Positions 12,201 to 42,211 of a DNA stretch of 64,000 nt are shown one piece after another. The DNA is taken from IMG/VR virus record IMGVR_UViG_3300009181_000043, positions 35,123 to 99,122 of that record. One strand, given 5' to 3'. The notes below the pieces were generated by a model, which worked only from the letters and a program-made list of their open reading frames with translations, was not told the origin of the DNA and did no database searches. The translations under genes were made by a program, and so were the position numbers. The first letter of the stretch is position 1; each line of letters begins with the position of its first letter. The DNA comes from a virus.

Positions 12201-13252
12201 GTGGTAGTATTCCAAGCACCTACGATCCAGTAAACGAATCAACCTACGTCAGACTGCGTAAGTTCGTAGTTGGTTTCCAAGGTGGTTTCGATGGTCAATG
12301 GCCTGCAATTCCAATCAATGTTGGAAGCGACATCACCGCCGGTAACACTCAAGGTCTTGATTGTACCTCAATCAAGAGCCCTGGTAGTATCGGATACAAG
12401 CAATGTATTGCTGCTCTGAGTAACTCTGACGAGTGGGATATTAACTTGATTGCTCTACCAGGCATCTTCTGTGAACAACACAGCTATGTTACTAACTTGA
12501 CAATTGACATGTGTACACAACGTGGTGATTGTTTCTACATCATGGATAACGTGGTGTTCCCAGCAAGTAACCAAAGCGTTGGATTGATTGATGCTGCTAT
12601 CAACAGCGTCGCAACAATCGACAGCAACTATGTTGCTACTTACTATCCTTGGATCAAGATTCTTGATACCAACTTGAACAAGGTAATCAGTGTACCTCCA
12701 TCAGTGGTGTTACCTTCAATCTATGCAGCAAACGACAATTCTGCTGCTGAATGGTATGCTCCAGCAGGTTTGAACCGTGGTGGTATTCCACAAGCAGTTC
12801 AAGTACTTGATCGTTTGACTCATCAAGAGCGTGATCAATTGTATGAAGGTCGTGTTAACCCAATCGCAGCATTCCCAGGACAAGGCATTGTAGTTTGGGG
12901 TCAAAAGACTCTACAAATTGCTCCAAGTGCATTGGATCGTGTGAATGTTCGCCGCTTGTTGATCAACTTGAAGAAGTTTATCGCAAGCTCAAGCAACTAC
13001 TTGGTGTTTGAACAAAACGTTGCAGCAACACGCAATCGCTTCTTGGCAATTGTTAACCCATACTTGGAGAGTGTACAACAACGTAACGGTATCTATGCTT
13101 ATCAAGTTAAGATGGATGCAGCTAACAACACTCCAGACTTGATCGATAGAAATATTCTATACGGTCAGATCTATATTCAACCAACTCGTACAGCAGAATT
13201 CATTATGTTGGACTTCAACATCATGCCGACTGGTGCGACTTTCTCAGCTTAA
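9260..13252 (+). CDS. Tail sheath protein (gp18-like), double length
   Basis: 1330 aa against 659 aa for T4 gp18. The N-terminus (SPGVFTREID, then a TLEQVFG-type segment and VRVGG) and the C-terminus (VWGQKTL, NVRRLLINLKKFI, FEQN, then RNILYGQIYIQPTRTAEFI) are typical of contractile sheath proteins. Roughly 800 residues between them are Ser/Gly/Thr/Ala rich and probably form extra domains on the outside of the tail. The protein polymerises around the tail tube and contracts at infection. A leader with AAAGGA gives it a strong conventional start, and a clear terminator follows the gene, both fitting a highly expressed structural gene. Confidence 0.93.
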   Translation: MPIQEGGRWSPEQSIVSPGVFTREIDQSGLAQGVANIGGAIVAPFADGPAFFPRIVTDVATLEQVFGVADGVYYGPYTTKEYLIQQGVVTVVRVGGLTGYWQKNPLVVYAQPGAWARSSDIGALTTASFMYLNSDNYTANIQYVHSSSAWVIPAAGTSGIPTGPESGISASISLTTKAQVVSFLGSYSYLANINNLSASLSTALTARKLVSITTLNAYAAFSASVVAGSGKVAKNGGSSDYALAAFDVEKFIPKGGFYVSGSGLAQETRSLNSTLNGVCTGNNAVRSWPANSGSYLTASITVSDGQVTWPFVFILSAYPSVANTTGYTFNKLAGSIKNLFAPVVAYDNSFVKFSGSISARFGAAALTSNYPANYAGTGYLSGSQLYGGKQLSLGTVGTTNRLVRKFTAQGPGNTNYSGFFYMSSSAQGQNTDEATQIATAINESSETVFRLSSSKLNMGSTTSDITLAYDKDTFDATSTLIVHSASFASVRSAATCGAALRFLGIVSGAYGPYDGTFVADANGSADPCNPAGDGRKNMVLGVLANTQNASTQFDNNYAVYGFVDSTVAQLTSSVYPYKGNINPTENQYQLALRYNFTDPDGNTTDGTYGYYGFSLNESDNNYIKDVFGADPTVGNPSKQIAGQKVEAAYTYVLFEDSIQRFLAEKTRSTAEGGGWKLQVATAPSSGFSVGESMKFVDQYSYDPNSGDSQFAISNASTPWIYSQQIAPFKGSSDASAHPVKFKLFKVHTLSDGTLSNQKYKIEISNVKLAGTVPGSNYGTFTLAVRSYSDTDKRPKYLEIYQNLNLDPDSANFVARRIGDRYAYITFSGKIVEYGTYVNLSRNIRIEMTDTAYPESIVPYGFESYSSPVDSTLSTFLPAVRYSKASIYGLGPGKYPSGTVFGEVPEASEEIAYLYPTASFGVGVDIDTKQWFKPLPYYGGNDQNGDNIDFDLEAKVWGTENAHYYAQGVAASTGSLLDPALSGSIPSTYDPVNESTYVRLRKFVVGFQGGFDGQWPAIPINVGSDITAGNTQGLDCTSIKSPGSIGYKQCIAALSNSDEWDINLIALPGIFCEQHSYVTNLTIDMCTQRGDCFYIMDNVVFPASNQSVGLIDAAINSVATIDSNYVATYYPWIKILDTNLNKVISVPPSVVLPSIYAANDNSAAEWYAPAGLNRGGIPQAVQVLDRLTHQERDQLYEGRVNPIAAFPGQGIVVWGQKTLQIAPSALDRVNVRRLLINLKKFIASSSNYLVFEQNVAATRNRFLAIVNPYLESVQQRNGIYAYQVKMDAANNTPDLIDRNILYGQIYIQPTRTAEFIMLDFNIMPTGATFSA

Positions 13253-13302: not shown

Positions 13303-13359
13303 CTTTTATATTTTTGAAGTGTATGTTAATATGTATCTATTAGATAAGGAGTATTGTAT

Positions 13360-14865
13360 ATGACTGAACGAGGTAAAAAAATAAGAGACGCATTTTTCAA
13401 AAAGTATGGTGTTTATCATCCATCTCAACTGCCTGAAGTTAAAGCTAAAATAAAGCAAAAACGAGAAAGTGGTGCGTATGACAACATGGTGAAAAAGATG
13501 AAGGACACTCTCAAAGAAAAATATGGAGATGAAAACTATAACAATGTAGAGAAGGGAAAACGCACCAAATTGGCGAAGTATGGGGATGAAAACTATAATA
13601 ACCGAGATAAAATGACGCGGACCAACAATCAGAAATATGGAATGAATGTTTCGCCCAACACTCTTAAAAGAACTCAAGAACGTGCATCCAATGGAGATAT
13701 TGGCTTCAAATCTGATCAATTTAAGCAGTATCTCAAAGATAATAATATAGAGAATGTGTCTCAATTGACGGACGTTAAAGAAAAAAAGAGACAAGAGATG
13801 ATCAATCGTATGGTTACAAACATTTTTGAGGGTGGTCGCCTTAATAAGATTGTATTACCGATTTTTCAACGAGACGAATATACAGGATGTGATTATGATA
13901 AGATGTATAAGTTTAAGTGTTGTAAATGCAACAATGAATTTCAAGATAATTTATACTCGGGAAATATTCCACGGTGTTTGAATTGTTATCCTCACAATAG
14001 GTTTAAGTCATCAATAGAAACTGAGATCTTGGATTTCTTACAGTCACATAACATAGAAACAAAACACCATAATAGATCTATATTAAATGGAGACGAAATT
14101 GATATATACGTACCATCCCTTAATTTTGCAATTGAATGTGATGGTGTTTATTGGCACAGTGAAATTGCTGGCGGCAAGAACAAACAGTATCATCTTAGCA
14201 AAACATTGAGGTGTAATCAACAAAATATTCAATTGATGCATATATGGGATTGGGAATGGCGTTGTAAAAATTCTATAATTAAAAGTATTTTGCTTAATAA
14301 GATGGGTAAGTCTACAAAAATTTATGCACGAAAATGTGTTGTTAAAGAAGTATCAAATGAAGATAAATCAAATTTTTTGGAAGACAATCATATACAGGGA
14401 GACGATACGTCATCAATACGATTGGGGTTATATCATAACAACGCATTGGTTTCTATAATGACATTTGTCAAATCCAGATACGATAAAAAATATCAATACG
14501 AACTGTCTAGATATTGCAATTTATTGAACACAAATATCGTGGGAGGATCGTCTAAACTATTTACACATTTTATTAAAAATTATGATGCAAATTCAGTTGT
14601 GACTTACAGCGATAAACGTTTATTTACAGGAAAAGTTTATGCGGGGTTGGGTATGCGGGTGTTGAAAGATACTCCGTGTGGTTATCATTATTTTCATAAA
14701 AATAACGGCGTTCCAATAAACAGAACTCATTTTCAAAAACACAAGCTTGATAAAACCTTGGAAAAATTTGATTGTGATTTGAGCGAGTGGCAGAATATGC
14801 AAATAAATGGTTATGATCGTATCTGGGACTGTGGTCACTTCAAGTACGAATGGCTGAGAATGTAA
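13360..14865 (+). CDS. Free-standing homing endonuclease, Vsr/PD-(D/E)xK-like with KYG repeats
   Basis: 501 aa from the ATG at 13360, chosen because AAGGAG (13346-13351) lies 8 nt upstream; a TTG at 13354 is less likely. The N-terminal third has repeated KYG motifs (KYGVYHPSQ, KYGDENYNN twice, KYGMNVSPN), like the NUMOD/DUF723 DNA-binding modules of phage endonucleases. A two-knuckle zinc motif (CCKC and CLNC) follows. The nuclease core has EIDIYVPSLNFAIECDGVYWH from about residue 247, resembling Vsr-type homing enzymes. The gene is more AT-rich than its neighbours, has its own ribosome-binding site and is bounded by terminators, all signs of a mobile element. Confidence 0.82.
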   Translation: MTERGKKIRDAFFKKYGVYHPSQLPEVKAKIKQKRESGAYDNMVKKMKDTLKEKYGDENYNNVEKGKRTKLAKYGDENYNNRDKMTRTNNQKYGMNVSPNTLKRTQERASNGDIGFKSDQFKQYLKDNNIENVSQLTDVKEKKRQEMINRMVTNIFEGGRLNKIVLPIFQRDEYTGCDYDKMYKFKCCKCNNEFQDNLYSGNIPRCLNCYPHNRFKSSIETEILDFLQSHNIETKHHNRSILNGDEIDIYVPSLNFAIECDGVYWHSEIAGGKNKQYHLSKTLRCNQQNIQLMHIWDWEWRCKNSIIKSILLNKMGKSTKIYARKCVVKEVSNEDKSNFLEDNHIQGDDTSSIRLGLYHNNALVSIMTFVKSRYDKKYQYELSRYCNLLNTNIVGGSSKLFTHFIKNYDANSVVTYSDKRLFTGKVYAGLGMRVLKDTPCGYHYFHKNNGVPINRTHFQKHKLDKTLEKFDCDLSEWQNMQINGYDRIWDCGHFKYEWLRM

Positions 14866-14959: not shown

Positions 14960-15994
14960 ATGATCAAATTAAATATTCTCCTAAATGAAGTATTGAGTGA
15001 AGGTGGAGCGGGTGGTCACATGGACCATCCTTTTGACTTTGCTAGCAATGGCAAACAACTTGTCAATGTATTTGTAAAAACAATTGATACATTGAAAAAG
15101 GGTACCGGAAGTGTAAAAATTGATGGTGTCAATGCCAGCATTCGTTTAGCCAATGGACAATTTGTAATGGATCGTGGTAGTGCTAAACCGTTTGATGTGC
15201 AGGGTATGCGACCATCCGATTTGGCAAAACGGTTTGAACCTGGACATGGATTCATAAAGATTGGTAGTAAGGTTATCAACATTTTTGACGATGCAATTCC
15301 AAGTACACAATCAGAACTGCAACAACTTGGTCTATTGAATAATCCAAATATTCTATTGAATGTGGAATATGTTGAGGGGCAGACAAATGTTGTGGGATAT
15401 GGAGACATTGGAAACTTTTTAGCAATTCACGGACTCAAAGAAATCAAACCAAAAACCTTTGGTAAAACTGGACAAGTAAAAAGTCGTGTGGCAGTGGAAA
15501 TTTCTTATGATAAAGATGTGATGCAAAGTTACATCAATAAGTTGAATATTGTTGCCAAGAAATATGGTTTCAAAGTATTGGGTAGTGTTGGCACAACATT
15601 CAAATCGGAGCCTAGTTTGTCAAAACCACTGAATGAAAAGATTACACTGTATCCAGACGGTCAACCAGTAACAAAGAGTCTCAACGATTGGTTGAAAGCT
15701 GTTAAGATCGAAACTCCACTAATTACCCGTGAGCAGTTTATTGCGGCCAGAAAGAGCAAAAATATTGGTAAAGATTTTGTTGGTCAAGATATTAAAAAGA
15801 TTATCAACGATACTGTTGTGTATATTGCCACAATCAAATTGGGTGATGAAATTTTGAAAAATGCCACCAGTGAGATTGGTGATTTAGAAAAACACGAAGG
15901 TATTGTGATTCGTGATCCGAGCATTTATAGTAAACCATATAAAATAACTGGTAGCTTCATTATTAATGGACTTCAGAGTGGTTTTAGCAAATAA
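14960..15994 (+). CDS. RNA/DNA ligase-like nucleotidyltransferase with capsid-tag-like N-terminus
   Basis: 344 aa. It carries the covalent nucleotidyltransferase motifs in order: motif I KIDG (K53, the predicted AMP-lysine), MDRG near 70-73, a motif III-like NVEY (E136), motif IV HEGIVIRD (about 312-319) and a motif V-like PYKITGSF (K about 328). This order matches RNA ligases and related ATP-dependent ligases. The N-terminus MIKLNILLNE has an L-x-E site at residues 8-10 and matches the start of four other proteins in the window, suggesting capsid targeting and prohead-protease cleavage. It is expressed from its own late-type motif between the homing endonuclease and the terminase operon. Whether RNA or DNA is the substrate is not decided by sequence. 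Confidence 0.75.
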   Translation: MIKLNILLNEVLSEGGAGGHMDHPFDFASNGKQLVNVFVKTIDTLKKGTGSVKIDGVNASIRLANGQFVMDRGSAKPFDVQGMRPSDLAKRFEPGHGFIKIGSKVINIFDDAIPSTQSELQQLGLLNNPNILLNVEYVEGQTNVVGYGDIGNFLAIHGLKEIKPKTFGKTGQVKSRVAVEISYDKDVMQSYINKLNIVAKKYGFKVLGSVGTTFKSEPSLSKPLNEKITLYPDGQPVTKSLNDWLKAVKIETPLITREQFIAARKSKNIGKDFVGQDIKKIINDTVVYIATIKLGDEILKNATSEIGDLEKHEGIVIRDPSIYSKPYKITGSFIINGLQSGFSK

Positions 15995-22212: not shown

Positions 22213-22824
22213 ATGAACACATTATTGATTGATGTATTACCGTTTGAGTTTAAGATTAAGAAGGCTTCGCTCACCGAAAGTTTGAGCGATGGAAAGCTTC
22301 TTGTCACGGGCACATTACAACGTGCCGAAGCAAAGAATCAAAACGGTAGAATTTACCCAAAAGGAATTTTGGAACGTGAAGCAACAAAGTACATGGACAA
22401 CTTTGTTAAACAACGACGTGCAATGGGTGAATTGGATCATCCAGAGAGCAGCGTCGTTAACCTCAAAAACGTTAGTCACAACATTGTTGATATGGGTTGG
22501 GACGGTGACGATCTTGTTGGTACTGTGGAAATTCTTCCTACTCCAAGTGGCAACATTCTCAAGGATCTGCTCAAGGCAGGTATTTTGTTGGGAATCAGTA
22601 GTCGTGGATTGGGTAGTGTCAAAAAAGACATGCGAGAAGGAGCCGATGTTGTACAAGACGACTTTGACTTGATTGCATTTGATTTTGTTAGTAATCCAAG
22701 TACTCAAGGAGCATTTATGTATCCTGCTGGTAAAATCACTGAAAGTGTAAATCAGTCCAGCACCATCATCAATCCTTACCAAAATATTGATAGAATTATT
22801 CGTGATATCATCTCCGAATTATAA
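22213..22824 (+). CDS. Prohead core protease (gp21-like)
   Basis: 203 aa (T4 gp21 is 212). The serine protease signatures are present: the catalytic His in MGELDHPESS and the Ser in GISSRGLGS, with NGRIYP near the N-terminus, as in the herpes-assemblin-like protease family. It cleaves head proteins after L/I-x-E once the prohead is complete. It carries such a site itself (SLTE, ending at about residue 22), consistent with self-processing. Several window proteins with early L-x-E sites are candidate substrates. It begins 3 nt after the upstream stop. Confidence 0.94.
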   Translation: MNTLLIDVLPFEFKIKKASLTESLSDGKLLVTGTLQRAEAKNQNGRIYPKGILEREATKYMDNFVKQRRAMGELDHPESSVVNLKNVSHNIVDMGWDGDDLVGTVEILPTPSGNILKDLLKAGILLGISSRGLGSVKKDMREGADVVQDDFDLIAFDFVSNPSTQGAFMYPAGKITESVNQSSTIINPYQNIDRIIRDIISEL

Positions 22825-22845: not shown

Positions 22846-23301
22846 ATGATCAAGCTAAAACACCTAGTAGAAAATTCAACCGAGACGGCATATGCTCCCT
22901 TGAGCAAGGAGGAAAAGATTAAGTTGCGTGAAACTATCAAGTCTTACAACGAATATCGTAAGAGCTTGAAGGCATCGGTTGTGTACGAGACCGCTAACAA
23001 GATTATGGAAGCTGTGAATCTTGCCGAGCGTTATGCCATCAAGGAATGTAATGAATGGATGGAAGCCAAGATGGTTGAGCGTGATATGAAGGATGTCAAG
23101 AAGATGGCTCAAAAGTTGTATGAAGAAGCACACAAAATCAAGAGTGTGGAGCAACAACTTGAAATGTTGTATGAAGAAATTGGTTTGAAATTGGAGCGTT
23201 ATTTTGAAATTGCAGACCCTATTGAGGTTCAACAAGGTACTGCAACTCCTACTTCACAACCTGCTGCGCCAGCACCAATGAAGAGTGTGGAAAGTAAGTA
23301 A
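22846..23301 (+). CDS. Coiled-coil head-region protein with capsid-tag-like N-terminus
   Basis: 151 aa. The N-terminus MIKLKHLVEN has L-x-E at residues 7-9 and matches the tag-like start of the ligase, the nucleotidyltransferases and the protein at 29194. The rest is a long charged helix, probably coiled coil, with a short Pro/Ala/Thr tail. Its place between protease and scaffold resembles that of T4 core or internal proteins, so a packaged internal or core protein is the best guess. The stop codon directly abuts the stop of the convergent minus-strand gene, with no base between them. Confidence 0.65.
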   Translation: MIKLKHLVENSTETAYAPLSKEEKIKLRETIKSYNEYRKSLKASVVYETANKIMEAVNLAERYAIKECNEWMEAKMVERDMKDVKKMAQKLYEEAHKIKSVEQQLEMLYEEIGLKLERYFEIADPIEVQQGTATPTSQPAAPAPMKSVESK

Positions 23302-25571: not shown

Positions 25572-27317
25572 ATGGATATTAAAGGTCTATTGACTAACAA
25601 TATGAATCCACAGGCTAAGCTGATGGCTGAAACCCGTGGTCTACAAGGCAAGTGGGAAAAGACAGGTCTGCTCGAAGGCACCAAGGGTGTTGAGAAGGCA
25701 CACATGTCCATCCTCTTGGAAAATCAAGCAAAGCAATTGCTCGACGAAGCAACCACGACTGGTACTAGTACCAGTTCTGAACAATGGGCTGGCGTAGCTC
25801 TTCCATTGGTTCGCCGTGTGTTTGCGGAGATCGCTGCTAAGGAGTTCGTCAGTGTTCAACCAATGAACCTCCCAAGCGGTCTGATCTTCTATCTCGACTT
25901 CAAGTATGGTTCTGGTAACCACTTGGGTCACACCGCTGGCGAAAGCCTTTTTGGTGGTAACAATAAGAAGCTAGGTTCAACCGACGCAGCAGTGAATGGT
26001 TTGTACGGTCAAGGTCGCTATGCGTACTCTGAGCGTACCGTAACTAGCTCTGCATTCAGTGCTGGTTATGCAACCGTTACAACCGCAAGTTGGAACGATT
26101 TGCAATTCGATTCAGCGTTTAGCTCATCAGTCAATAGTACCGGAAAAGTTGTTGGTACCTACAAGATCACATTCAACATCGACGACAACACTCAATCAAA
26201 CACCGCCGCCGCCACTGGTTACGCATGGAATGTTGATTTGAATGCTGTTCGTTCATTCCAGGCTTCATTGGCCAATACCGGATTGACCATGTTGAATACA
26301 TATGCAACCGCAACCAACACTGGTAGCATTGCAAATCCATACTACCAAATCAACTTGTTCACCACGCAGGCCGCTGGAGTCTTAGTGGCGTCACCAAGTA
26401 CATTGCGCTTGAATTACACGCTTCAACCTACGGATAATCTTCGTGGTGACTTTGAAGCTGGTAAGACAGCCGGTGAAGGTTCTGGCAACAGTTCCGCAAC
26501 CGCAACACAATCAATTGATACCGACATTGGTATTCCTGAAGTCAACCTTGAGTTGAAGAGCGAACCAATCGTTGCTAAGACTCGTAAGTTGAAGGCAGTC
26601 TGGACACCAGAATTGGCACAAGACTTGAATGCATACCACTCAATCGATGCAGAAGCAGAATTGACTGCGTTGTTGAGCGAGTATGTGTCAATGGAAATCG
26701 ACTTGGAAATCCTCGACATGTTAAACGAGTCTGTGACCGGTACAACAACCGAGGCATGGAGTGCTCAAATCGGTACCGAGTTCACCAAGAGTCTGAACAA
26801 TCAAACTGATGTTGCTACGTTCACCCGTGTGACGAACGCATCAGCAAACCGTACCGCATACGTCAAGTCAACCTGGTTCCAAACCCTTGGTAACAAGATC
26901 CAAAAGGTCAGTAACAAGATTCACCAGTTGACATTGCGTGGTGGTGCTAACTTCTTGGTGTGCTCACCAGATGTTGCAACTATTCTGGAGTCAATCCCAG
27001 GGTACGTTGTCAGCACTGATGGTGACCAAGCTAAGTTCGCAATGGGTGTGAGTCGTGTTGGTAGCTTCGCAAGTCGCTTCCAAGTCTACAAGAACCCATA
27101 CATGACCGATAACGTCATTCTGCTTGGTTTCCGTGGAAGCAACTTCCTCGAAACCGGTGCTGTGTACGCTCCATACATCCCACTCATCCAGACCCCATTG
27201 GTCTATGATCCAGTGAACTTCACCCCACGTCGTGGTGTGATGACCCGCTACGCTAAGAAGGTAGTCCGTCCGGAGTTCTACGGTAAAGTCTTGATCGCCG
27301 ATCTCGACACCGTATAA
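25572..27317 (+). CDS. Major capsid protein (gp23-like)
   Basis: 581 aa (T4 gp23 is 521). Typical features are an N-terminal pro-region ending in LLDEATTT (L-x-E followed by A), then WAGVALPLVRRVFAEI and VQPMNLPSGLIFYLDFKYG, and a C-terminal YAPYIPLIQTP followed by FTPRRGVMTRYAKK. Cleavage after the LDE near residue 60 by the gp21-like protease is predicted. It forms the hexamers of the head. A Shine-Dalgarno (AGGAAAC) precedes it and a strong terminator follows. Confidence 0.96.
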   Translation: MDIKGLLTNNMNPQAKLMAETRGLQGKWEKTGLLEGTKGVEKAHMSILLENQAKQLLDEATTTGTSTSSEQWAGVALPLVRRVFAEIAAKEFVSVQPMNLPSGLIFYLDFKYGSGNHLGHTAGESLFGGNNKKLGSTDAAVNGLYGQGRYAYSERTVTSSAFSAGYATVTTASWNDLQFDSAFSSSVNSTGKVVGTYKITFNIDDNTQSNTAAATGYAWNVDLNAVRSFQASLANTGLTMLNTYATATNTGSIANPYYQINLFTTQAAGVLVASPSTLRLNYTLQPTDNLRGDFEAGKTAGEGSGNSSATATQSIDTDIGIPEVNLELKSEPIVAKTRKLKAVWTPELAQDLNAYHSIDAEAELTALLSEYVSMEIDLEILDMLNESVTGTTTEAWSAQIGTEFTKSLNNQTDVATFTRVTNASANRTAYVKSTWFQTLGNKIQKVSNKIHQLTLRGGANFLVCSPDVATILESIPGYVVSTDGDQAKFAMGVSRVGSFASRFQVYKNPYMTDNVILLGFRGSNFLETGAVYAPYIPLIQTPLVYDPVNFTPRRGVMTRYAKKVVRPEFYGKVLIADLDTV

Positions 27318-27378: not shown

Positions 27379-28155
27379 TTAGAAGAACGACGTTGAAGTT
27401 TCAACATTGTGTTCTGTAACAACTTCCTTGAATATGGTTCCTTTGATGTATGGCAACACTTTGTGTTTCAATGATTTCACAAGCTTTTTATTTTCAATCT
27501 TGCCACAAATGAACTTAACGTAACGATGTTTACCACTTTCACGTTTGCGCCAAAAGGTTTTGCCTATACGTTCTTTTAGTTTATCGACGTTGTGTGTTTT
27601 CCATCGGCTATACACACTGCGACTGTGAATCCAGTTATAGTTTGGTGGGCCTTCGAGACTAACGCTGTAATTGGGCATCAATGCTATATCAACGTAATTG
27701 TCACCTTGATACATAAACCCAGTGGCTTGGTAAATTGTACCACGATGTCCTTCTTCGCTATCGGCATACGTCAGAATACATTTGACTTTTGGATAATCCT
27801 TGTTGAGCAGCCGAAAGCTTTCGGCCAATGCATAACTTTCTATGTTTTTACCATACCCGTCAGCAATCCAAAGTCTGGTCAATTCAAACACATGGTCATT
27901 GGTCAATAATTCACTGATGCTTTTACTTGCACAGCGACCCACTGCGTTACCATATACCAATACACCTATGAGTTTGTTGTTGAATCCACCAAAGAATGTG
28001 CTTTCTATATAGTCTTTATAATATACACCATACGCCACTGTGCAACTTGTCCACTTGTGGCTATAATGATTTTTTTCAATCATTGTACGTGCGACCGATT
28101 TGTTTATCGGTTGTAGATGTATCAACGAAGTATCACAATATTGTGCATCACTCAT
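27379..28155 (-). CDS. Mom-like GNAT-fold protein (putative DNA-modification acyltransferase-like)
   Basis: 258 aa. The middle reads like phage Mom and related GNAT proteins: MIEKNHYSHKW early on, GVLVYGNAVGR, then ELTRLWIADGYGKN followed by SYALAESFRLL, and YADSEEGHRGTIYQATGF. Phage Mu Mom converts adenine to a carbamoylmethyl-type base that blocks restriction enzymes. A similar anti-restriction role is possible here but not shown; some phage members are annotated only as acetyltransferases. The C-terminal 60 residues are basic, which suits DNA contact. It is on the minus strand, downstream of the lipoprotein gene by 38 nt and convergent with the capsid gene. Confidence 0.7.
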   Translation of the reverse strand: MSDAQYCDTSLIHLQPINKSVARTMIEKNHYSHKWTSCTVAYGVYYKDYIESTFFGGFNNKLIGVLVYGNAVGRCASKSISELLTNDHVFELTRLWIADGYGKNIESYALAESFRLLNKDYPKVKCILTYADSEEGHRGTIYQATGFMYQGDNYVDIALMPNYSVSLEGPPNYNWIHSRSVYSRWKTHNVDKLKERIGKTFWRKRESGKHRYVKFICGKIENKKLVKSLKHKVLPYIKGTIFKEVVTEHNVETSTSFF

Positions 28156-29151: not shown

Positions 29152-29159
29152 TATAAATA
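29152..29159 (-). promoter_or_regulatory. Late-promoter-like TATTTATA on minus strand
   Basis: Read on the minus strand, 7 nt before the lipoprotein ATG at 29144. It is back to back with the plus-strand site at 29182. Confidence 0.55.
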
Positions 29160-29181: not shown

Positions 29182-29189
29182 TATTTATG
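29182..29189 (+). promoter_or_regulatory. Late-promoter-like TATTTATG
   Basis: One-base variant, 4 nt before the ATG at 29194. It appears to drive the whole coupled operon 29194-33901. Confidence 0.55.
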
Positions 29190-29193
29190 TAGT

Positions 29194-29796
29194 ATGATTA
29201 AATTCAATGACCTTATTGAGAACGACACGCTGTGCCCAATGAAGTTGGTACAAGATCCAATTGTCAGTTCTAATTTGAAATATCACATCACAAACGGTAT
29301 ACCTTTATGTGAAAACATCTTTAGAACTTACAGTGAGTCTTACTTTGAGTTGCTAGAAGAAGTTCGCATACTATATATTAGCAACGGAATCGAGTTATGT
29401 GACGTGGATGCCGAACTAGTGGAGAGTGACCTTGGTAAAAAGGAATTGTTTGAAGGGCGAGAAGTTTATTTGGATGCTCCAATTGAGGTAGAAGAAGATT
29501 TGATCATGGAATTGAAGCATAGAGGTCGCACTGTGCATTTGAATCGCCCATTTCGTACTCCTGGGCAATCTAAAAAATATGCAGTGTATGTGAAATCAAA
29601 AACTGGCAAAGTGAAAAAGGTTACTTTCGGAGACCCAAATCTGAAAGTTAAAGGTAGTAGTGCAGCACGTCGCAAGAGTTTTGCTGCTCGGCACAAATGT
29701 AGTCAAAAGAAGGATCGCACAACCGCTGGTTATTGGAGTTGTAGAAGTCACAGAATCAAGAGCCTTGGAAACAAAGGCAAGGGACGTTACTGGTAA
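29194..29796 (+). CDS. Tag-bearing protein with C-terminal basic phage domain, 200 aa
   Basis: The start at 29194 is chosen over an upstream in-frame ATG at 29062 because it follows the late-type motif by 4 nt and gives MIKFNDLIEN, the tag-like N-terminus with L-x-E at residues 7-9. The C-terminal 80 residues (KKYAVYVKSKTGKVKKVTFG, then ARRKSFAARHKCSQKK, YWSCRSH) form a very basic, Cys/His-containing domain that I recognise as widespread in marine T4-like phage proteins of unknown function. A nucleic-acid-binding packaged protein is plausible. It heads the operon of RNA-processing enzymes. Confidence 0.7.
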   Translation: MIKFNDLIENDTLCPMKLVQDPIVSSNLKYHITNGIPLCENIFRTYSESYFELLEEVRILYISNGIELCDVDAELVESDLGKKELFEGREVYLDAPIEVEEDLIMELKHRGRTVHLNRPFRTPGQSKKYAVYVKSKTGKVKKVTFGDPNLKVKGSSAARRKSFAARHKCSQKKDRTTAGYWSCRSHRIKSLGNKGKGRYW

Positions 29797-29857
29797 AATC
29801 AAATTATTTGACAATATGTTAATAAACGAAAATAGACATGTAGAAAAAGGGTGCTTA

Positions 29858-30331
29858 ATGGCGTATGTTGATCCTACTTATGGACCCCGCATTGCGGCAA
29901 CAGGCCAGCGCATTATTCCACCACAAAGCGTATATACCGATCCAGATGATCCCACATATGGATATGATACTGAGCCACATGTTACTTTGAAATATGGCTT
30001 TGAACCAGACTTGACAAGATCGGCTGTTGCTAGTATACTTAGTGATGTAAAGCCATTTATTTGTAGAATCAGAGCACTAAACCAGTTTCTGAATGAAAAG
30101 TATGATGTAGTTAAATTCGAAATAGAAAAACATCCTATATTGACAAAACTACGCAGTCGGTGCGACATGTATCCAAACACTGATAGTTACCCAGACTACA
30201 ATCCCCACATGACACTTGCGTATGTCAAAAAGGGAACATTTCCACATATTCGTGAAGGATTGAATATTGCCGTACCAATTACACGATTCAAATACAGCGG
30301 TCCTAATGGCAAATATTTTATTAACTTATGA
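29858..30331 (+). CDS. 2H phosphoesterase / 2'-5' RNA ligase-like protein
   Basis: 157 aa from the ATG at 29858, which has AAAAAGG upstream; an in-frame ATG at 29816 would add 14 residues. The two hallmark motifs of the 2H superfamily are present: HVTLKYG (H41) and HMTLAYV (H117), each with the central H-x-T. Members open or form 2',3'-cyclic phosphates and 2'-5' linkages at RNA ends. This suggests RNA end healing next to the CCA-type nucleotidyltransferase. The stop overlaps the next start (ATGA). Confidence 0.8.
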   Translation: MAYVDPTYGPRIAATGQRIIPPQSVYTDPDDPTYGYDTEPHVTLKYGFEPDLTRSAVASILSDVKPFICRIRALNQFLNEKYDVVKFEIEKHPILTKLRSRCDMYPNTDSYPDYNPHMTLAYVKKGTFPHIREGLNIAVPITRFKYSGPNGKYFINL

Positions 30332-31770
30332 TTACTTTCAAAAATTTATTGGTGGAAGGTGCAAAAGAAAATGCTGCGTTGGACTACTTGCAAAAGCTGG
30401 TTCAGAGTGGTCCTTTCAAGGGGCGGGTATATCTGGCTGGCGGAGCGGTTCGTGATATGCAACTTGGTAAAGATCCAAAAGATCTTGACGTGGTTGTAAC
30501 TGGCGGACTTGATGCTGGTATGGAGTTTGCAAAATGGGCAACTCAAACCATGAATAACTATAGTAATGGTAGCAATCCAGTGTTATTTCCAACATATGGT
30601 ACTGCCAAGTTTACTCTTAAAGGTATTAAGCACAACGGCTTTGATCTGAGCGATATTGATATCGAAGCTGTGGCAACTCGTAAAGAGAAGTACACAACGG
30701 GTAGTCGTAAACCAGAGGTCAGTGCAGGCGATCTGGAGGACGATGTACACCGCCGTGATTTCACGGTCAATAGTTTGCTCAAGGATTTGACCACTGGCGA
30801 AATTTTGGATTTGACCGGAAAAGGCAAAGAGGACATTCGTAGGGGTATTATTCAGACTCCTTTGAATCCCGATGTCATCTTCACAGAAGATCCATTGCGT
30901 ATGCTGCGTGCTGTTCGCTTTACCATGAAATATGGTTGGGAATTACCAATGTTCATGATCAGAGCGTTGAAGCGCAATGCTGCTCAGTTGCAGAACATTA
31001 GTGCCGAGCGTACCCGTGATGAGCTTGATAAAATGCTTGTGACGGGTAGCCCAGACCGTGCAATCAAGTTGTTGCGAATCACTGGACTGTTGAATTACAT
31101 CATTCCAGAGTTCAAGACTGCTTACAAAATGACGCAGAACGTACACCATAAACGAGATGTGTTTGGTCACACCTTGGATGTGATGAAAGGTACCGACCCA
31201 GTGTTGTTGCAGCGTTTGATGGCATTGTTTCACGATATTGGCAAGACAGTTACTCGTAGTGTTACTCCCACGGGCGTACATTTCTATGGACATGAAGATG
31301 TTGGTGCTGATATGACCCGAGACATCATGCGCCGGTTGAAGTACCCAAATGAGCTTATTGATGCTGTTGTGTCTGGTGTAGCTAACCACATGAAACTAAA
31401 GCATGGTGGCGATGATGCTGTGAAATTGAGTGACAAGACGTTGCGTAAGTTTAAGATTGCGTTGGGAGACAAGCTTGAAGACGTGTTGAATGTTATTCAC
31501 GCTGACAACACGGCTCATAGCGAGGCAAGTAGTATGCCCAATCAGATTGTGAATGTTCGCAACCGATTGAAAGGATTGGAGGCTTCAACTCCCAGCGAAC
31601 CAAAACTACCCATCACTGGAAAAGATTTGATTGATATGGGCGTCAAACCGGGTCCAATTTTTAGCAAAATTCTTGCTGCTGTTACTGAAAAATGGTATGA
31701 GAATCCCAATATAACAACACAACAGGCTTTGCATATTGCCAAGTCTATTGTAAACTCACAACCAAAATGA
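30328..31770 (+). CDS. CCA-adding/poly(A) polymerase-type nucleotidyltransferase with HD domain
   Basis: 480 aa, apparently complete. The head domain has GGAVRD (38-43) and the catalytic DLDV (D52, D54), then RRDFTVNSLL (about 142) and EDPLRMLRAVRF, followed by ERTRDELDKML. An HD phosphohydrolase domain follows, with HDIGK near 302, as in bacterial CCA enzymes with 2',3'-cyclic phosphatase activity. The expected reaction is repair or synthesis of tRNA 3'-CCA ends. The N-terminus MITFKNLLVE is tag-like, with L-x-E at 8-10 and about 20 residues ahead of the catalytic fold. It overlaps its neighbours on both sides by ATGA. Confidence 0.85.
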   Translation: MITFKNLLVEGAKENAALDYLQKLVQSGPFKGRVYLAGGAVRDMQLGKDPKDLDVVVTGGLDAGMEFAKWATQTMNNYSNGSNPVLFPTYGTAKFTLKGIKHNGFDLSDIDIEAVATRKEKYTTGSRKPEVSAGDLEDDVHRRDFTVNSLLKDLTTGEILDLTGKGKEDIRRGIIQTPLNPDVIFTEDPLRMLRAVRFTMKYGWELPMFMIRALKRNAAQLQNISAERTRDELDKMLVTGSPDRAIKLLRITGLLNYIIPEFKTAYKMTQNVHHKRDVFGHTLDVMKGTDPVLLQRLMALFHDIGKTVTRSVTPTGVHFYGHEDVGADMTRDIMRRLKYPNELIDAVVSGVANHMKLKHGGDDAVKLSDKTLRKFKIALGDKLEDVLNVIHADNTAHSEASSMPNQIVNVRNRLKGLEASTPSEPKLPITGKDLIDMGVKPGPIFSKILAAVTEKWYENPNITTQQALHIAKSIVNSQPK

Positions 31771-32786
31771 TTAAACTTACAGACATACTACAACAAAGTG
31801 TGATCAAACTCACCGAAGGTGGTAAGCTTTTTGGTAGTAGAGCACAACGTGTGGCTACTGCTGAAATGAATGCTATTTTTGATGAGCTTAAAAAACGACT
31901 GGGTAGTCGGTTTGAAAAGTTTCAGTTGAGCAAAGCTTTGCCATCCAAGGCAGACCATGGTGATATTGATATTGTCATTAGTGGCAACTCTGATGTCAAG
32001 AAAGCGTTGTTTACTTACTTGGGGCCATTGATCAAAGACTATAGTAAGAATGGCGATATCTATAGTGTGTTGTATAGCAGCGAAACTGGCAAGACTGTTC
32101 ATGTAGACTTTTTGTATGCTTCTGCTGATGACTATGATGCTCAATATGACTATTTGAGCTACAACGACTTCAGTGGTATTCTGGGTGTGTTTGCTCGCAG
32201 ATTGCGTTTCAAGTATGGAACTGATGGTTTCTTCAAAATCTATGAAGACAAGCGGGGACAATATCATTATATTCTGTTGACCAAGAATCTGCGTGACGGA
32301 CTCAAAATGTTGGGCTATGCACCAATTCTATCAAAGTTTGATGACATCAAAACACTCGACGACATTGTTGAATTTATTAGCTACACCGATTTATTTGATA
32401 GCTCATATTTTGAAGGTGTGGGTCATAACAACAGTGATCGCAAGCGTATGCGAGCAGGCCGTCCTAGTGCTCAAGAACTCAAAGCCAAGCTGATTGCGTT
32501 GAACAAACGCAGAACTCAACCAGACGACGAACATTACGTCAAAACACTGTTTCCAGACAAGTATGCTGACTTGGTAAAGAAACAAGCCGAGATTGAAGCT
32601 TTTGCTCCTGTGAAGGGCAAATATGGTGGCGATTGGATTCTACAAATCTTTCCACAAATCAAACCTGGCCCAGCTCTTGGAAAAATCAAGTTGTTTTGGA
32701 CTCAGAAATATGGTGATAAACTCGATAATGTTTCTGATGATGAACTCCGTAACGTGACCGCTGAGTTTTTGAAAACACTAAAATGA
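31767..32786 (+). CDS. Second Pol-beta-type nucleotidyltransferase with tag-like N-terminus
   Basis: 339 aa. The catalytic GDIDIVISG (D66, D68) and a third acidic strand VHVDFLY (about 112) identify a Pol-beta superfamily nucleotidyltransferase. The N-terminus MIKLTDILQQ is tag-like and is followed by L-x-E (LTE, 15-17). The C-terminal region (PGPALGKIKL, then DELRNVTAEFL) resembles the tail of CCA-type enzymes, so this may be a paralogue of the preceding gene. No HD domain is seen. The substrate is unknown; RNA ends are the contextual guess. ATGA overlaps occur with both neighbours. Confidence 0.72.
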   Translation: MIKLTDILQQSVIKLTEGGKLFGSRAQRVATAEMNAIFDELKKRLGSRFEKFQLSKALPSKADHGDIDIVISGNSDVKKALFTYLGPLIKDYSKNGDIYSVLYSSETGKTVHVDFLYASADDYDAQYDYLSYNDFSGILGVFARRLRFKYGTDGFFKIYEDKRGQYHYILLTKNLRDGLKMLGYAPILSKFDDIKTLDDIVEFISYTDLFDSSYFEGVGHNNSDRKRMRAGRPSAQELKAKLIALNKRRTQPDDEHYVKTLFPDKYADLVKKQAEIEAFAPVKGKYGGDWILQIFPQIKPGPALGKIKLFWTQKYGDKLDNVSDDELRNVTAEFLKTLK

Positions 32787-33076
32787 AGCCTTATAGTGAG
32801 GTAAAATTAGATAAAAATCAATACATTAGATCATTTAGCTCCAAGGTGAAAACCGAGGAGCTTGAATGGCATTTGGACCGAGAAGATAGAGTTATTGATG
32901 TTTTGGAAAACGATGGTGGTTGGATGATACAATTAGACAATAAGTTACCTTCTTTACTCAAGGAAACGATATTTATACCTAAAGAAACTTATCACCGTGT
33001 TATAAAGGGCACAGGAGGGTTAGTAGTAAGAATCACCAAATTGTATGAATCCAACAGTACAAAACACACTGGCTAA
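32783..33076 (+). CDS. Small cupin-like phage protein, 97 aa
   Basis: A small beta-rich protein with HLDREDRVIDVLE early and IPKETYHRVIKG late, the kind of spacing seen in single-domain cupins; I recall similar small ORFs in marine T4-like phages without known function. It starts within the stop of the nucleotidyltransferase gene (ATGA), so its expression is coupled. Nothing else indicates a function. Confidence 0.6.
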   Translation: MKPYSEVKLDKNQYIRSFSSKVKTEELEWHLDREDRVIDVLENDGGWMIQLDNKLPSLLKETIFIPKETYHRVIKGTGGLVVRITKLYESNSTKHTG

Positions 33077-33182
33077 AATTCTTAAAGTAAAAAAGCTAAA
33101 AGAAGAAAAGCAACGTAAAGAGGCGTTGGCAAAGTTGCCGCCTGTTTCAGAGTACAAACTTCTGGCATCGTTATTACTATGA
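33045..33182 (+). CDS. Small basic ORF, 45 aa, coupling two operon genes
   Basis: ATG at 33045, TGA at 33180-33182. It starts 32 nt before the end of the upstream gene in another frame and its stop overlaps the next ATG (ATGA at 33179). The peptide is helical and Lys/Glu-rich (KILKVKKLKEEKQRKEALAK). Without it there would be a 102-nt gap in an otherwise gapless operon, which supports it as a real gene. Function unknown. Confidence 0.55.
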   Translation: MNPTVQNTLAKILKVKKLKEEKQRKEALAKLPPVSEYKLLASLLL

Positions 33183-33901
33183 GTAAAAAATTAAGAGTCT
33201 TTGATTTTGACGATACGCTTTTTCATACATCTGGCAAAGTGATTGTTGCACATGCGGATGGTTCTACTGATCAGTTTACACCCGCACAGTATGCAGTTTA
33301 TGAACCACGATCTGGTGACAAGTTTGATTTTTCTCAGTTTGTATCGGTTGTAGATCCAAAAGTTATTCGTCCGGTCGCCAAGAGATTCTATAAAATTGTG
33401 AATGCTGGTGATGATGGTCGTTTGACTGTAATTTTAACAGCCCGAGGTCCAGATAGTGTGCCTCATATACAAAATATACTTCAAAAATATTTTCGTGTAA
33501 ATATTCCAATTATTGCGGTGAATAGTAGCAATCCACAGACCAAGGCAGATTGGATTAAAAATAAAATTGATGCTGGCTTTGACGATGTGTTTTTTGTGGA
33601 TGACAGTCCCAAGAACATCAAGGCTGTGTATGTCGCAGTAAAAGATCTGCCAATCAAATACAAAATTGTTGATTTGTCAGGACCACGCAGATTCCAGGCC
33701 GACAACAGGCCAGGTCAGAGTCAACCCATCACTGAGATTAAAACTGGAGATATTTTGAGAGAATTCAATGGAAAACGTCTAGAAAATATCAGAGTTGCGT
33801 TTAATGATCGGGGTGATGTTGATTTGTTGGAGTTGTATTTTGAAGATAGTTACAAAGCATTAGTTATTGATGGTGAACACTTGGATGCTAGAATAGTTTA
33901 G
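33179..33901 (+). CDS. HAD-superfamily phosphatase with C-terminal extension
   Basis: 240 aa. All HAD motifs are visible: motif I DFDDTL (D9, D11), motif II ILTARG (T about 88), a Lys in TKADWIK and motif IV VFFVDDSPKN (about 139-148). The layout resembles phage HAD phosphatases related to the 3'-phosphatase half of polynucleotide kinase, but no kinase domain is attached. A separate region of about 50 residues after the HAD fold is unassigned. Being last in the operon with a 2H phosphoesterase and nucleotidyltransferases, removal of 2'- or 3'-phosphates from RNA ends is a reasonable guess. Confidence 0.72.
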   Translation: MSKKLRVFDFDDTLFHTSGKVIVAHADGSTDQFTPAQYAVYEPRSGDKFDFSQFVSVVDPKVIRPVAKRFYKIVNAGDDGRLTVILTARGPDSVPHIQNILQKYFRVNIPIIAVNSSNPQTKADWIKNKIDAGFDDVFFVDDSPKNIKAVYVAVKDLPIKYKIVDLSGPRRFQADNRPGQSQPITEIKTGDILREFNGKRLENIRVAFNDRGDVDLLELYFEDSYKALVIDGEHLDARIV

Positions 33902-33941: not shown

Positions 33942-35180
33942 ATGAGTGCTAAATTAGACCAAGACAGGGTGCGCTGGCCGGGCAGCGGTAGTATCGTGAA
34001 CTTAGCATCTGTGCCGTTCGGATATTATTTGGGCGAACGTTGTACCGGTGGCGAGACCACATTTGAGAACGATTGTAGTGGTAGTGCCATGTGGGCGGCA
34101 AAACGGTTGGGGTATCCGATAGTAGATATCGAAATGATCGATGTTAATTTTTATGCTTGCTTTGAAGAATCTGTTTTGGAGTATAACCGTGTGGTCAATG
34201 AGTTCAATATTGTTAACAACATGGTTAACGTGCAGGGTCTTCCACAAGATAAATATAAAAATCTCACGGGTCTTGCAGTCAAAGGTACAGGTTTACCATT
34301 TGTTGTACAACTCAGCAAGCAATATGGATCTGAAGCCCTTTTGGGTGGTGAAGTGCAACTGAAGCGTTGTTCTATACCAACTAGTTCCAGTATGAGCAGT
34401 TCTTATGGTGGTGGTAAGGGAACTCAACAAGTATACGATTTGAATAAGTTGATTGGTCGTGACGTTGAACATTTAAGTAGTTCTCGTATTGAAGTCAGAC
34501 GTGTATTCCACTATAGAGCACCAGCAGTGGCTCGTATTTATGATCCGTTCAGCATGACAGGTATGAGCTACAGCAACGTGTTGGGAGAATTAGGATTCGG
34601 TGGCTATAGTCCTGCTACACAATTTTTGATGACGCCTATCTTTGAGGACTTGGAACGTATTCAAGCTATTGACTTCAACGACATGGTTCGTAAGAGCGCA
34701 TTTGGGTTTGAAATTTATGGCAACAATTTGTTGAGAATTTTTCCAATTCCCAACTATGATTTCAAGATCTATATTGAGTACTACGTTGAGAGCGACAATG
34801 ACATTACTAATTTTACTAGTGGTAGCAGATATCAATATATCAGCGATCCAAGCGATGTGCCATATGAATATTGCACATATTGTAAGATAAATCAACCCGG
34901 TAAGCAGTGGATTAAAAAATATTTTCTGGCGTTGTGTAAAGAAACTTTGGGTCGTATTCTTCAGAAATATACTCAGATACCAATTCCCGGCGATAGTGTT
35001 ACCATGGATGGTGCTGAACTGCGTGCCGAGGCCAAGGACGAAATGTCCAATCTTCTTGAGAAATTACGAGAGATGTTGGACAAATCATTGCGTGTCAATC
35101 AGTTAGAAAATAAAGACAAAGAAACTGAGGCAATGCATAAAATGTTGTCAAGAGTTCCCCTTAAAATTTATATAGGCTAA
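33942..35180 (+). CDS. Neck/connector protein, probably gp13-like
   Basis: 412 aa. An early segment LGYPIVDIEM followed by FEESVLEYNRVV is typical of head-completion or neck proteins of marine T4-like phages. The later RKSAFGFEIYGNNLLRIFP and a charged helical C-terminus agree. It is followed after 3 nt by a better-recognised gp14-like gene, the T4 order 13-14. It would join the filled head to the tail. T4 gp13 is 309 aa, so this one is larger. Confidence 0.55.
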   Translation: MSAKLDQDRVRWPGSGSIVNLASVPFGYYLGERCTGGETTFENDCSGSAMWAAKRLGYPIVDIEMIDVNFYACFEESVLEYNRVVNEFNIVNNMVNVQGLPQDKYKNLTGLAVKGTGLPFVVQLSKQYGSEALLGGEVQLKRCSIPTSSSMSSSYGGGKGTQQVYDLNKLIGRDVEHLSSSRIEVRRVFHYRAPAVARIYDPFSMTGMSYSNVLGELGFGGYSPATQFLMTPIFEDLERIQAIDFNDMVRKSAFGFEIYGNNLLRIFPIPNYDFKIYIEYYVESDNDITNFTSGSRYQYISDPSDVPYEYCTYCKINQPGKQWIKKYFLALCKETLGRILQKYTQIPIPGDSVTMDGAELRAEAKDEMSNLLEKLREMLDKSLRVNQLENKDKETEAMHKMLSRVPLKIYIG

Positions 35181-39574: not shown

Positions 39575-40738
39575 ATGATACAAAGCAAGTATAAAATTTA
39601 CCTAGACATGGATGGTGTAATTGTGGACTGGGTAAAACAATTTGAAAACTATAGCGGTGGCATGTCACCAGAAGCATATGTATCGTCGCATGGTGGTGAG
39701 AATCGTTATGAACTGGTACATCAAAACAGCCCAGCATTTTATGCTACGGCACCATGGATGCGTGATGGCAGAGTGTTGTACCACTTTGTGTCACAATTCC
39801 CCACAGAAATTTTGAGTCACTCAACCGATCTGGAAAGTACCGATGGTAAGAAACAATGGTTAGAATCAAATGGTATCAAGCTAAAAACTAATCTGGTTCC
39901 CAACAGAGACGACAAAACTAAATTTGCTGGACCAGATGCTATCATGATCGACGACCGGCCGGACGTAATTGATAATTTCACAAAAGCGGGTGGTCAAGGA
40001 ATTTTGCATATCAACGCAACAGATACTATCAATAAACTCAAAGAAATTTTGGGCGTCAAAGAACAGCACAGAATCTACAACAGTATTTTGAATCCCGAAA
40101 TTTTTGAGGGTGAGATTCTGAAACCAGAAGTACATGATATGTTGCTAAAGGTAGCAACTGAGTTCTACAAGAACACAGAATTGACAGCACCAATTGAAGA
40201 CATATACTTTCTGGGTAGCAGTGCTGGATACAACTGGACTCCAACAAGTGACATGGATTTGCATGTTTTGATCGATTTCAAGTTGGTTGATCCAAATAAA
40301 GAGTTGGTAAAAAAGTTGGTGGATGGATATAAAAATAAATGGAATGAAGACCATGATATTCATTATAATGAACATCCGGTTGAAGTGTATATTCAAGATG
40401 TTGATGACGTAAATCGTAGTCAAGCGGTGTATAGTGTGCTCAACAACCACTGGGTCAAGAAACCACAACATGAAAATATTCAGATTGATAAACCAGCAAT
40501 TAAAACCAAATACAAACAACTTGTTCAACAAATTGACAACACAATTACCAGTAAAAATTTGAATGATCTCAAAGATACAGTTAAACGCTTATACAACATG
40601 CGTGAGGCTGGTTTGAGCACAGGTGGTGAATACAGTACCGAGAATATTGTGTTCAAATTATTGAGATCCAGTGGATATATCAGTAAATTAAGAGCCAACA
40701 TAAATTATTTAACTGATACCGATCTTAATAAAGTATAA
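39575..40738 (+). CDS. HAD phosphatase fused to Pol-beta nucleotidyltransferase
   Basis: 387 aa, two domains. Residues 1-165 are a HAD hydrolase with DMDGVIVDW (D11, D13) and IDDRPD (about 124), close to 5'(3')-nucleotidase-type HADs. From about residue 185 there is a minimal nucleotidyltransferase: GSSAGYNWTPTSDMDLHV (G214, S215, D226, D228) and a later acidic strand VEVYIQDVDD. The fusion pairs end dephosphorylation or nucleotide hydrolysis with nucleotidyl transfer. Three Pol-beta-type enzymes are now visible in the window (30328, 31767 and this one). Late expression is expected from the motif 4 nt upstream. Confidence 0.75.
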   Translation: MIQSKYKIYLDMDGVIVDWVKQFENYSGGMSPEAYVSSHGGENRYELVHQNSPAFYATAPWMRDGRVLYHFVSQFPTEILSHSTDLESTDGKKQWLESNGIKLKTNLVPNRDDKTKFAGPDAIMIDDRPDVIDNFTKAGGQGILHINATDTINKLKEILGVKEQHRIYNSILNPEIFEGEILKPEVHDMLLKVATEFYKNTELTAPIEDIYFLGSSAGYNWTPTSDMDLHVLIDFKLVDPNKELVKKLVDGYKNKWNEDHDIHYNEHPVEVYIQDVDDVNRSQAVYSVLNNHWVKKPQHENIQIDKPAIKTKYKQLVQQIDNTITSKNLNDLKDTVKRLYNMREAGLSTGGEYSTENIVFKLLRSSGYISKLRANINYLTDTDLNKV

Positions 40739-41413: not shown

Positions 41414-42211
41414 ATGAATAATAAAGTAACAGTTCTTTTGCCGGGCGGATTCAAACCACCTCATGCTGGTCATTTGGGCCTAGCCAACAAATTTGCTAGT
41501 CGAGCCGATGTCGAACAGGTGATTGTAATGGTTGGTCCGAGCGAACGAGATGGCGTCAACCGACAACAAAGCATTGCCATCTGGAATCTGTTGCCAACAA
41601 ACCCCAAAGTAAAAATCGTGCCTGTCAACGATGACAGTCCAATGAATGCAGCATTTGGGTATGTGTTTAATTTACCCAAGGACAGCACCGAGACTGTGGC
41701 GTTGGGAGCCAGTGCTAAAAGTGCTGAAGATGCCAAGCGAAGCAAGATATTTTCAGCTGCTGTGCAACGCTACAAAACCAAACCAACCAAAGATGGTGTT
41801 ACTGCACCCACTGGTGTTAATGTAATTGAAATGACGGATGATGCTCCCAGCAACTATGTGGGAAGAATTGATGGTAAAAATGGTCAAAGTATCAGTGCTA
41901 GTACGTTGCGTCAAGACCTGGGTAATGGTGATTTTAAGAATTTTCAAACAAACTATCCCGGTATCAAAACTGGTGTGGTCAAGAGTATCTACGGAATTTT
42001 AACAAAAAAGAAACCATCTATGGACGAATCAAAAAAATCAAAATACAAAGAAATTGTTAAACAAATGATCCAAGAAGATCAAAGTGAGTTTATAAATGCA
42101 CTGGTAGGCCCAGACAAAGACTTTCAGACTGCTCTTGATAAAATCAACAAACGTGCCACGCTCTTGACAAAAACAGCACAAGATGCGGCAAGCAAGACAA
42201 TTCCGAAATAA
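41414..42211 (+). CDS. NMN adenylyltransferase/cytidylyltransferase-like protein
   Basis: 265 aa. The nucleotidyltransferase alpha/beta phosphodiesterase signature GGFKPPHAGH (11-20, HxGH) and the later SISASTLR (about 159-166) identify this fold, which includes NadR/NadM NMN adenylyltransferases and cytidylyltransferases. NAD synthesis or salvage is the common role in large phages; the exact substrate cannot be read from sequence. The C-terminal 65 residues are a charged helical extension. It is read from a late-type motif after the tube terminator. Confidence 0.72.
   Translation: MNNKVTVLLPGGFKPPHAGHLGLANKFASRADVEQVIVMVGPSERDGVNRQQSIAIWNLLPTNPKVKIVPVNDDSPMNAAFGYVFNLPKDSTETVALGASAKSAEDAKRSKIFSAAVQRYKTKPTKDGVTAPTGVNVIEMTDDAPSNYVGRIDGKNGQSISASTLRQDLGNGDFKNFQTNYPGIKTGVVKSIYGILTKKKPSMDESKKSKYKEIVKQMIQEDQSEFINALVGPDKDFQTALDKINKRATLLTKTAQDAASKTIPK

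Follow-up and report, generated by a model that had tools for sequence, protein, structure and literature searches.

Why would a phage place what looks like an RNA end-repair kit under late control? The question is raised by a 64,000-nucleotide stretch of viral DNA (the window; positions 35,123 to 99,122 of the 99,122-base IMG/VR record IMGVR_UViG_3300009181_000043), in which an operon at 29194–33901 encodes a 2H phosphoesterase, a CCA-type tRNA nucleotidyltransferase (the CCA enzyme), a Pol-beta nucleotidyltransferase and a HAD phosphatase, and in which a ligase-like gene (LIG) starts at 14960 (window coordinates; plus strand unless stated otherwise). A first-pass annotation had read these genes as serving RNA end repair, and had called late expression unexpected for counter-defence unless the proteins are packaged. 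This aside gains support here, as LIG, the CCA enzyme, Pol-beta and the product of the first operon gene carry a common N-terminal tag resembling the one that loads proteins into T4 heads. The gp21-type prohead protease, gp20, gp23 and T4-type terminase found in the window by Pfam search identify the virus as a T4-type phage; because a related record, whose LIG is 81% identical, is much larger (303,564 bases), the 99,122-base record is probably a fragment of a larger genome.

In T4, internal proteins reach the prohead core by means of an N-terminal capsid-targeting sequence of 10–19 residues, with targeting depending mainly on residues 4 and 7, processing on residues 8 and 10, and gp21 cleaving after Glu (PMC9026906). 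The internal proteins of T-even phages form a diverse counter-defence set in which only the targeting sequence is common to all (PMC3012670). The four window proteins share a 9–17-residue tag of the form MIK(L/F)xx(I/L)Lx...(L/I)xE↓G/N (the arrow marks the putative cut): MIKLNILLNEVLSE↓GG in LIG (14960–15001), MITFKNLLVE↓G in the CCA enzyme (30328–30357), MIKLTDILQQSVIKLTE↓GG in Pol-beta (31767–31817), and the nine-residue MIKFNDLIE↓N in the product of 29194–29796, a protein of unknown function (PHROG 7595, 7e-16) whose homologue in one related locus (L008) starts MIKLKDILNE. The CCA enzyme (F4, L7, L8, E10) and LIG (L4, L7, L8, E10) follow the T4 rules residue by residue, and LIG, the CCA enzyme and Pol-beta all have a leader of 10–19 residues with hydrophobic positions 4 and 7 and (L/I)xE; the leader of the 29194 product has 9 residues and that of the 2H protein 5. 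The same kind of tag, MIKLKHLVE↓N, opens a candidate head-core protein (22846–23301) encoded between the gp21-type protease (22213–22824; Pfam Peptidase_S77, 7e-31) and the scaffold and capsid genes. Proteases of this type are likewise present in relatives (G001, G007, G008–G010 and the Microcystis phage Mel-JY01).

A profile built from the LIG, CCA and Pol-beta tags was scored on open reading frame starts in loci of relatives, and 41 of 719 other starts exceeded a score of 5, against none of 1,963 internal methionines; the 41 include mutual homologues and correspond to about 25 independent families. A second profile, a position-specific scoring matrix trained solely on unrelated tagged proteins from other phages, gave a partly circular ranking in which LIG (14.9), Pol-beta (12.7), the CCA enzyme (11.0), the 29194 product (8.5) and the head-core candidate (7.6) stood above the next of the 44 window genes (2.9), with a maximum of about 8–9 on the 1,963 internal-methionine peptides; the first scan is the less circular. 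A set of 33 distinct LIG alleles shows little or no variation at the hydrophobic and Glu positions, with [IL]xE↓GG invariant, codons varying synonymously, and the residue preceding the last tag Glu (P2) being Q, R, K, S, T or N. Retention of the tag residues amid synonymous changes indicates selection at the protein level rather than a DNA initiation motif. The Pol-beta tag varies in length from 10 to 20 residues among relatives, and the tagged versions all end xxE↓GGKLFG. The cut-like boundary also recurs inside larger proteins: in 45 of 51 other sequences with a LIG domain, mostly long polyproteins (many of 770–1,642 residues) with unrelated upstream linkers, [LIVFM]xE↓G stands immediately before that domain, and MLNE↓A precedes the CCA domain fused into a 1,233-residue protein of a 735-kb phage. 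The CCA enzymes of phages Lak-A2, phiN3, Slickus01 and Tunturi_5 are untagged, so we rejected the idea that phage CCA enzymes carry the tag as a rule; together with the untagged second RNA ligases and kinases of relatives, they argue against a general N-terminal bias as the source of the tag.

Since key enzymes bear a T4-type head-loading tag, they probably enter the host together with the DNA, before phage gene expression. From the genes, motifs, tag, protease and conserved cut-like boundary established here, we infer packaging, cleavage, ejection, substrate and order of steps as follows. LIG, the CCA enzyme, Pol-beta and the 29194 product would be synthesised late, recruited to the prohead core by their N-terminal capsid-targeting sequence, freed by the gp21-type protease cutting after (L/I)xE, and ejected into the next host alongside the DNA, like T4 IPI and Alt. 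Their target would most likely be host RNA ends, above all tRNAs cleaved by defence ribonucleases: HD, 2H and HAD phosphoesterases would remove 2',3'-cyclic or 3' phosphates, the nucleotidyltransferases would restore lost 3' nucleotides, CCA included, and LIG would seal the repaired ends. The 2H and HAD proteins, which are untagged, may be active late only, or may lie outside the packaged set. Judged by sequence and by analogy with T4, packaging of the four proteins appears highly probable, and RNA ends are the likely, if less assured, main substrate of the tagged enzymes; for the joint proposal, that these enzymes are packaged, ejected and mend host RNA ends, we estimate a probability of roughly 55%.

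All genes reported by the first-pass annotation are present at the positions it gave, and its family assignments for the operon enzymes and for a fusion gene at 39575 held up by profile matches or motifs. The 2H phosphoesterase (29816–30331, its start corrected to the ATG at 29816) has HVT and HMT as its two H-x-T motifs (Pfam 2_5_RNA_ligase2, 8e-12); identity with the anti-CBASS protein Acb1 was rejected at 21.8 bits against a Pfam cut-off of 27, over 20 residues only. The CCA enzyme (30328–31770) matches PolyA_pol (8e-21), the RNA-binding PolyA_pol_RNAbd (4e-16), HD (6e-9) and, at 5e-68 but under the equivalog cut-off, the NCBIfam CCA nucleotidyltransferase; aligned with relatives, it keeps GGxxRD, DxD, RRD, EDxxR and the HD residues, and so fits a class II CCA-adding enzyme with an HD domain, CCA addition itself being predicted. 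Pol-beta (31767–32786) contains GDIDIV and VHVDF, whose catalytic acids are invariant in nine relatives, as the motifs of the CCA enzyme and LIG are also intact in alignments. Its sole family match is PHROG 24943 ("DNA polymerase", 2e-9), with none in Pfam and nothing useful from a sequence search of the PDB; RlaP membership is not established, and a comparison of its C-terminus with that of the CCA enzyme gave no convincing match (52 columns, probability 21%). The HAD phosphatase (33179–33901) matches the phosphatase part of a PHROG polynucleotide kinase family (8e-7) and has DDT, LTARG and DDSPKN motifs, and the fusion (39575–40738) joins a HAD deoxyribonucleotidase-like domain (2e-19) to a nucleotidyltransferase domain (PHROG, 1e-39).

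LIG (14960–15994, 344 residues) carries the motifs expected of the covalent nucleotidyltransferase (ligase) superfamily, to which it is predicted to belong: KxDGxN as motif I, E136 as motif III, EGIVxR as motif IV and a motif V Lys (patterns KxDG, E, EGxV and K). KIDGVN, EYVEG, HEGIVxRD and K328 are conserved in 22 sequences of relatives; K53, D55, G56 and E136 are invariant across a broad alignment (A4), and EGIV and K328 in the near clade. The protein has no match in Pfam or PHROG and no sequence match in the PDB, and membership of the Pfam RNA_ligase family was rejected, as no protein of the 99,122-base record matches that profile. A predicted structure (predicted local distance difference test score, pLDDT, 76, with residues 1–19 at low confidence; a second model, built on a broader alignment, reached only 66) finds as its best ligase folds T4 Rnl2, Rnl1, an archaeal RNA ligase and an editing ligase, at E-values of 2e-3 to 2e-2, with DNA ligases ranking below the RNA ligases. 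We therefore term the product ligase-like, its modelled fold weakly resembling that of RNA ligases; conserved ligase motifs favour the earlier "RNA-ligase-like" label, but a family match is lacking and the fold match is weak. Most of the 80 loci carry LIG as a core gene located upstream of the terminase.

Several observations weigh against packaged RNA repair. On the side of the tag, the families used to train the second profile had been picked by tag similarity, which makes its ranking partly circular; Glu is absent at the LIG boundary in 6 of the 51 sequences (one a truncated contig); and the GGxxGHMxHPFD segment that follows the site is conserved in its own right, which means that conservation of the boundary could be partly catalytic. 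The 2H protein has a possible leader of 5 residues at most (MLINE↓N here; M(L/I)(L/I)xE↓NRH in five lineages), the operon HAD protein and the 39575 fusion are both untagged, and we found no virion proteomics report for PA5oct or Mel-JY01 in the open-access literature. On the side of the chemistry, LIG has no match to Pfam RNA_ligase (PF09414) above the cut-off and matches T4 Rnl2 weakly (E-value 2.3e-3, probability 0.92, template-modelling score 0.27–0.29), the intact operon is confined to near relatives and broken up in others, and the tagged cargo of relatives is mixed, which makes RNA repair one of several cargo functions. The RNA end-repair idea of the first-pass annotation thus stays plausible, since the enzyme set fits it, but is weakened by the uncertain identity of LIG, an operon that is not fixed, and 2H and HAD proteins without a clear tag. 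A longer 2H tag was also considered: an in-frame GTG in L099 and L111 would give MKLLENMLLxE, but upstream stops in L006 and L100 leave the five-residue leader as the only general form.

In relatives the gene set recurs in pairs, in several lineages, with the whole operon in near relatives only. Pol-beta has 2H nearby in the window clade and in L006, L007, L099, L100, L103, L104 and L120, and a CCA gene in L006, L007, L101 and L130; L124, L126, L132 and others have neither in the flanks covered. Because pairs recur while the full set breaks up, the complete set is not a fixed operon.

The mixed cargo leads to the best-surviving alternative, namely that the proteins are packaged and ejected as a host-takeover set with no coordinated RNA repair, LIG and a HIGH-type nucleotidyltransferase serving NAD or other nucleotide chemistry and the CCA enzyme and Pol-beta modifying or disabling host RNAs. 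Tagged proteins in relatives include ADP-ribosyltransferases (ART-PolyVal, 1.3e-27 and 1.3e-13), a DnaJ-domain protein and an FMN-reductase-like protein, with a NUDIX hydrolase just under the tag threshold (4.3), and polyvalent injected proteins are likewise known to combine activities (PMC5512222). The regular partner of LIG is a HIGH-type (NMNAT/cytidylyltransferase-like) nucleotidyltransferase, untagged in the window (41414–42211; Pfam CTP_transf_like, 0.0013); it is fused with LIG into one protein in marine phages and, at 11243–13162, in Mel-JY01, and a 462-kb phage encodes it in the gene next to LIG. Certain marine fusions also contain a P-loop kinase domain; such an architecture is reminiscent of NAD salvage by NadR-type proteins and keeps an NAD-related role a live rival. 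Pointing the other way, three of the four tagged non-core proteins of the window are, by motif, nucleic-acid-end enzyme types; LIG has the KxDGxN motif I and finds RNA ligases as its top ligase-like structure matches; and the same enzyme types are described jointly as RNA repair in jumbo phages (PMC7824862). On balance we regard an uncoordinated takeover set as unlikely, though not negligible. A second tagged family in relatives, beginning MISLSDLLLEAKLPxSEQDMD and lying directly upstream of LIG in many loci (L018, L024, L026, L032 and others), is not found in the window; its FMN-reductase match is weak (0.005).

Less probable still is a late operon for RNA repair or tRNA maintenance that is never packaged, the N-termini being translation-initiation or other sorting signals. 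Its seven open reading frames (29194–29796, 29816–30331, 30328–31770, 31767–32786, 32783–33076, 33045–33182 and 33179–33901) had been described as one overlap-joined unit, which holds from the 2H gene through the HAD gene (every junction overlaps, mostly by a 4-nucleotide ATGA) but not for the first gene, 19 nucleotides upstream of 2H. Two of the seven encode small proteins, one of 97 residues (32783–33076), untagged and with no confident family in Pfam or PHROG searches, and one of 45 residues (33045–33182) found in near relatives. The proposed late expression is supported by a late-promoter-like TATTTAT at 29182–29188, 5 nucleotides before the ATG and at equal spacing before at least six other late genes (14960, 22846, 33942, 39575, 41414 and 45939); TATAAATA at 29152 was rejected as the operon promoter, being upstream of, and serving, a divergent minus-strand gene that starts at 29144. 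TATTTAT also lies 5–6 nucleotides upstream of start codons at 1473 and, on the minus strand, 24262, and the window holds 27 sense-strand copies on the plus strand versus 9 on the minus. Its fixed spacing suggests that late transcripts are leaderless and that the motif is an inverted version of the one at T4 late genes. This motif, and the lack of a clear tag on the 2H, HAD and fusion proteins, would suit an unpackaged operon, but residues 4, 7, 8, 10 and 14, conserved amid synonymous changes, reach too deep into the protein, and look too much like a protein-level feature, to be an initiation signal, the cut-like boundary persists inside polyproteins, away from any N-terminus, and the head-core candidate beside the protease bears the same tag. 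Finally, the folds of covalent ligases and Pol-beta enzymes are used on DNA as well, co-injection would fit, and DNA ligases appear lower down in the LIG structure search, yet a packaged set whose task is to mend or shield the ends and nicks of incoming phage DNA is very improbable given the RNA-binding domain of the CCA enzyme (PolyA_pol_RNAbd, 4e-16), the 2',3'-cyclic RNA ends that are 2H substrates, and a LIG whose KxDGxN motif is RNA-ligase-like and whose structure matches place RNA ligases above DNA ligases.

The first-pass annotation saw no 5'-kinase, and none (AAA_33) was found in the 99-kb record, itself probably a fragment; related genomes hold untagged candidates. In the 303-kb near relative, G001, which has no CCA gene, another two RNA-ligase matches (one at 5.9e-24, the other weak at 2.3e-4) and a P-loop kinase lie at 101928–102410, 148935–149363 and 151921–152334, untagged where checked (L239, L246). 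Giant tagged late proteins of 1,100–1,640 residues occur in marine loci (L160, L203, L210, L226 and similar), combining, depending on the locus, a Zeta/AAA_33 kinase, a HIGH nucleotidyltransferase and a ligase-like domain adjoining an apparent protease site. We tentatively suggest, at somewhat less than even odds, that some large T4-type phages have two RNA-repair layers, one packaged (ligase-like, CCA and Pol-beta enzymes, sometimes 2H) and one of untagged ligase and kinase made after infection, the packaged layer of marine relatives being a single polyprotein of kinase, HIGH nucleotidyltransferase and ligase cut by the prohead protease before the ligase domain.

T4 Alt is a packaged ADP-ribosyltransferase, and an ADP-ribosyltransferase is likewise found among the tagged proteins of relatives here. 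With T4 IPI–III and Alt the window shares a hydrophobic N-terminal tag ending (L/I)xE, a gp21-type protease, and the use of one tag on unrelated late proteins; it differs in that the cargo is of CCA, Pol-beta and ligase-like type, the tag is MIKLxxILxE rather than that of T4, and packaging is predicted from sequence. T4 Pnkp and Rnl1 share the likely goal of mending RNA cut by defence nucleases and the phosphatase and ligase steps, whereas here the ligase-like family is another one, CCA and Pol-beta enzymes are added, the genes are late and tagged, and the 99-kb fragment has no 5'-kinase fused or linked to a phosphatase alongside Rnl1. Iyer and colleagues assign RNA ligases, 2H, HAD, RlaP Pol-beta and CCA enzymes to jumbo-phage RNA repair (PMC7824862); the enzyme classes are the same as ours, and packaging goes unmentioned in the passages found, whereas here part of the kit is capsid-tagged. 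Polyvalent proteins are also multi-domain and predicted to be packaged and injected, some with 2H and nucleotidyltransferase domains, but the present proteins are short and separately tagged, or are polyproteins in which what looks like a prohead-protease site comes ahead of the ligase domain, and the 2H versions of polyvalent proteins were not seen alongside RNA ligases (PMC5512222). The RNA-repair kit itself and packaged counter-defence proteins are thus already known; the open-access literature searched yielded no account of CCA, Pol-beta or ligase enzymes being targeted to capsids, and the combination of such a kit with capsid targeting would be new if packaging is confirmed.

Other features of the record include the gp23-type major capsid protein (25572–27317; Pfam Gp23, 4e-74), whose maturation site, by analogy with T4, is presumed to be LLDE↓A near residue 59, and, within the head-gene block, a minus-strand Mom-family gene (27379–28155; Pfam Mom, 3.6e-43) of possible DNA base modification. 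Between the 9260 gene and LIG, an open reading frame at 13354–14865 looks, from its translation alone, like an HNH or homing-type endonuclease. Upstream of the window, at 757–1144 of the 99,122-base record (L014), lies a full-length phage-encoded transfer-messenger RNA, a ribosome-rescue RNA (Rfam RF00023, 122.8 bits; ARAGORN tag AEENVVSYDFSYENVGAVAA).

Anticodon nucleases and the tRNA-tail-cutting Cas12a3 (PMC12851939) are host ribonucleases that halt translation early, and such a shutdown is hard to undo for a phage whose repair genes have yet to be translated. Pre-packaged repair enzymes, if true, would solve this timing problem, as a packaged layer would mend tRNA ahead of all phage gene expression. 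The tag offers a sequence handle to predict injected cargo across uncultured T4-type phages, and because the cultured relative Mel-JY01 carries a tagged ligase-domain protein, the proposal is testable.

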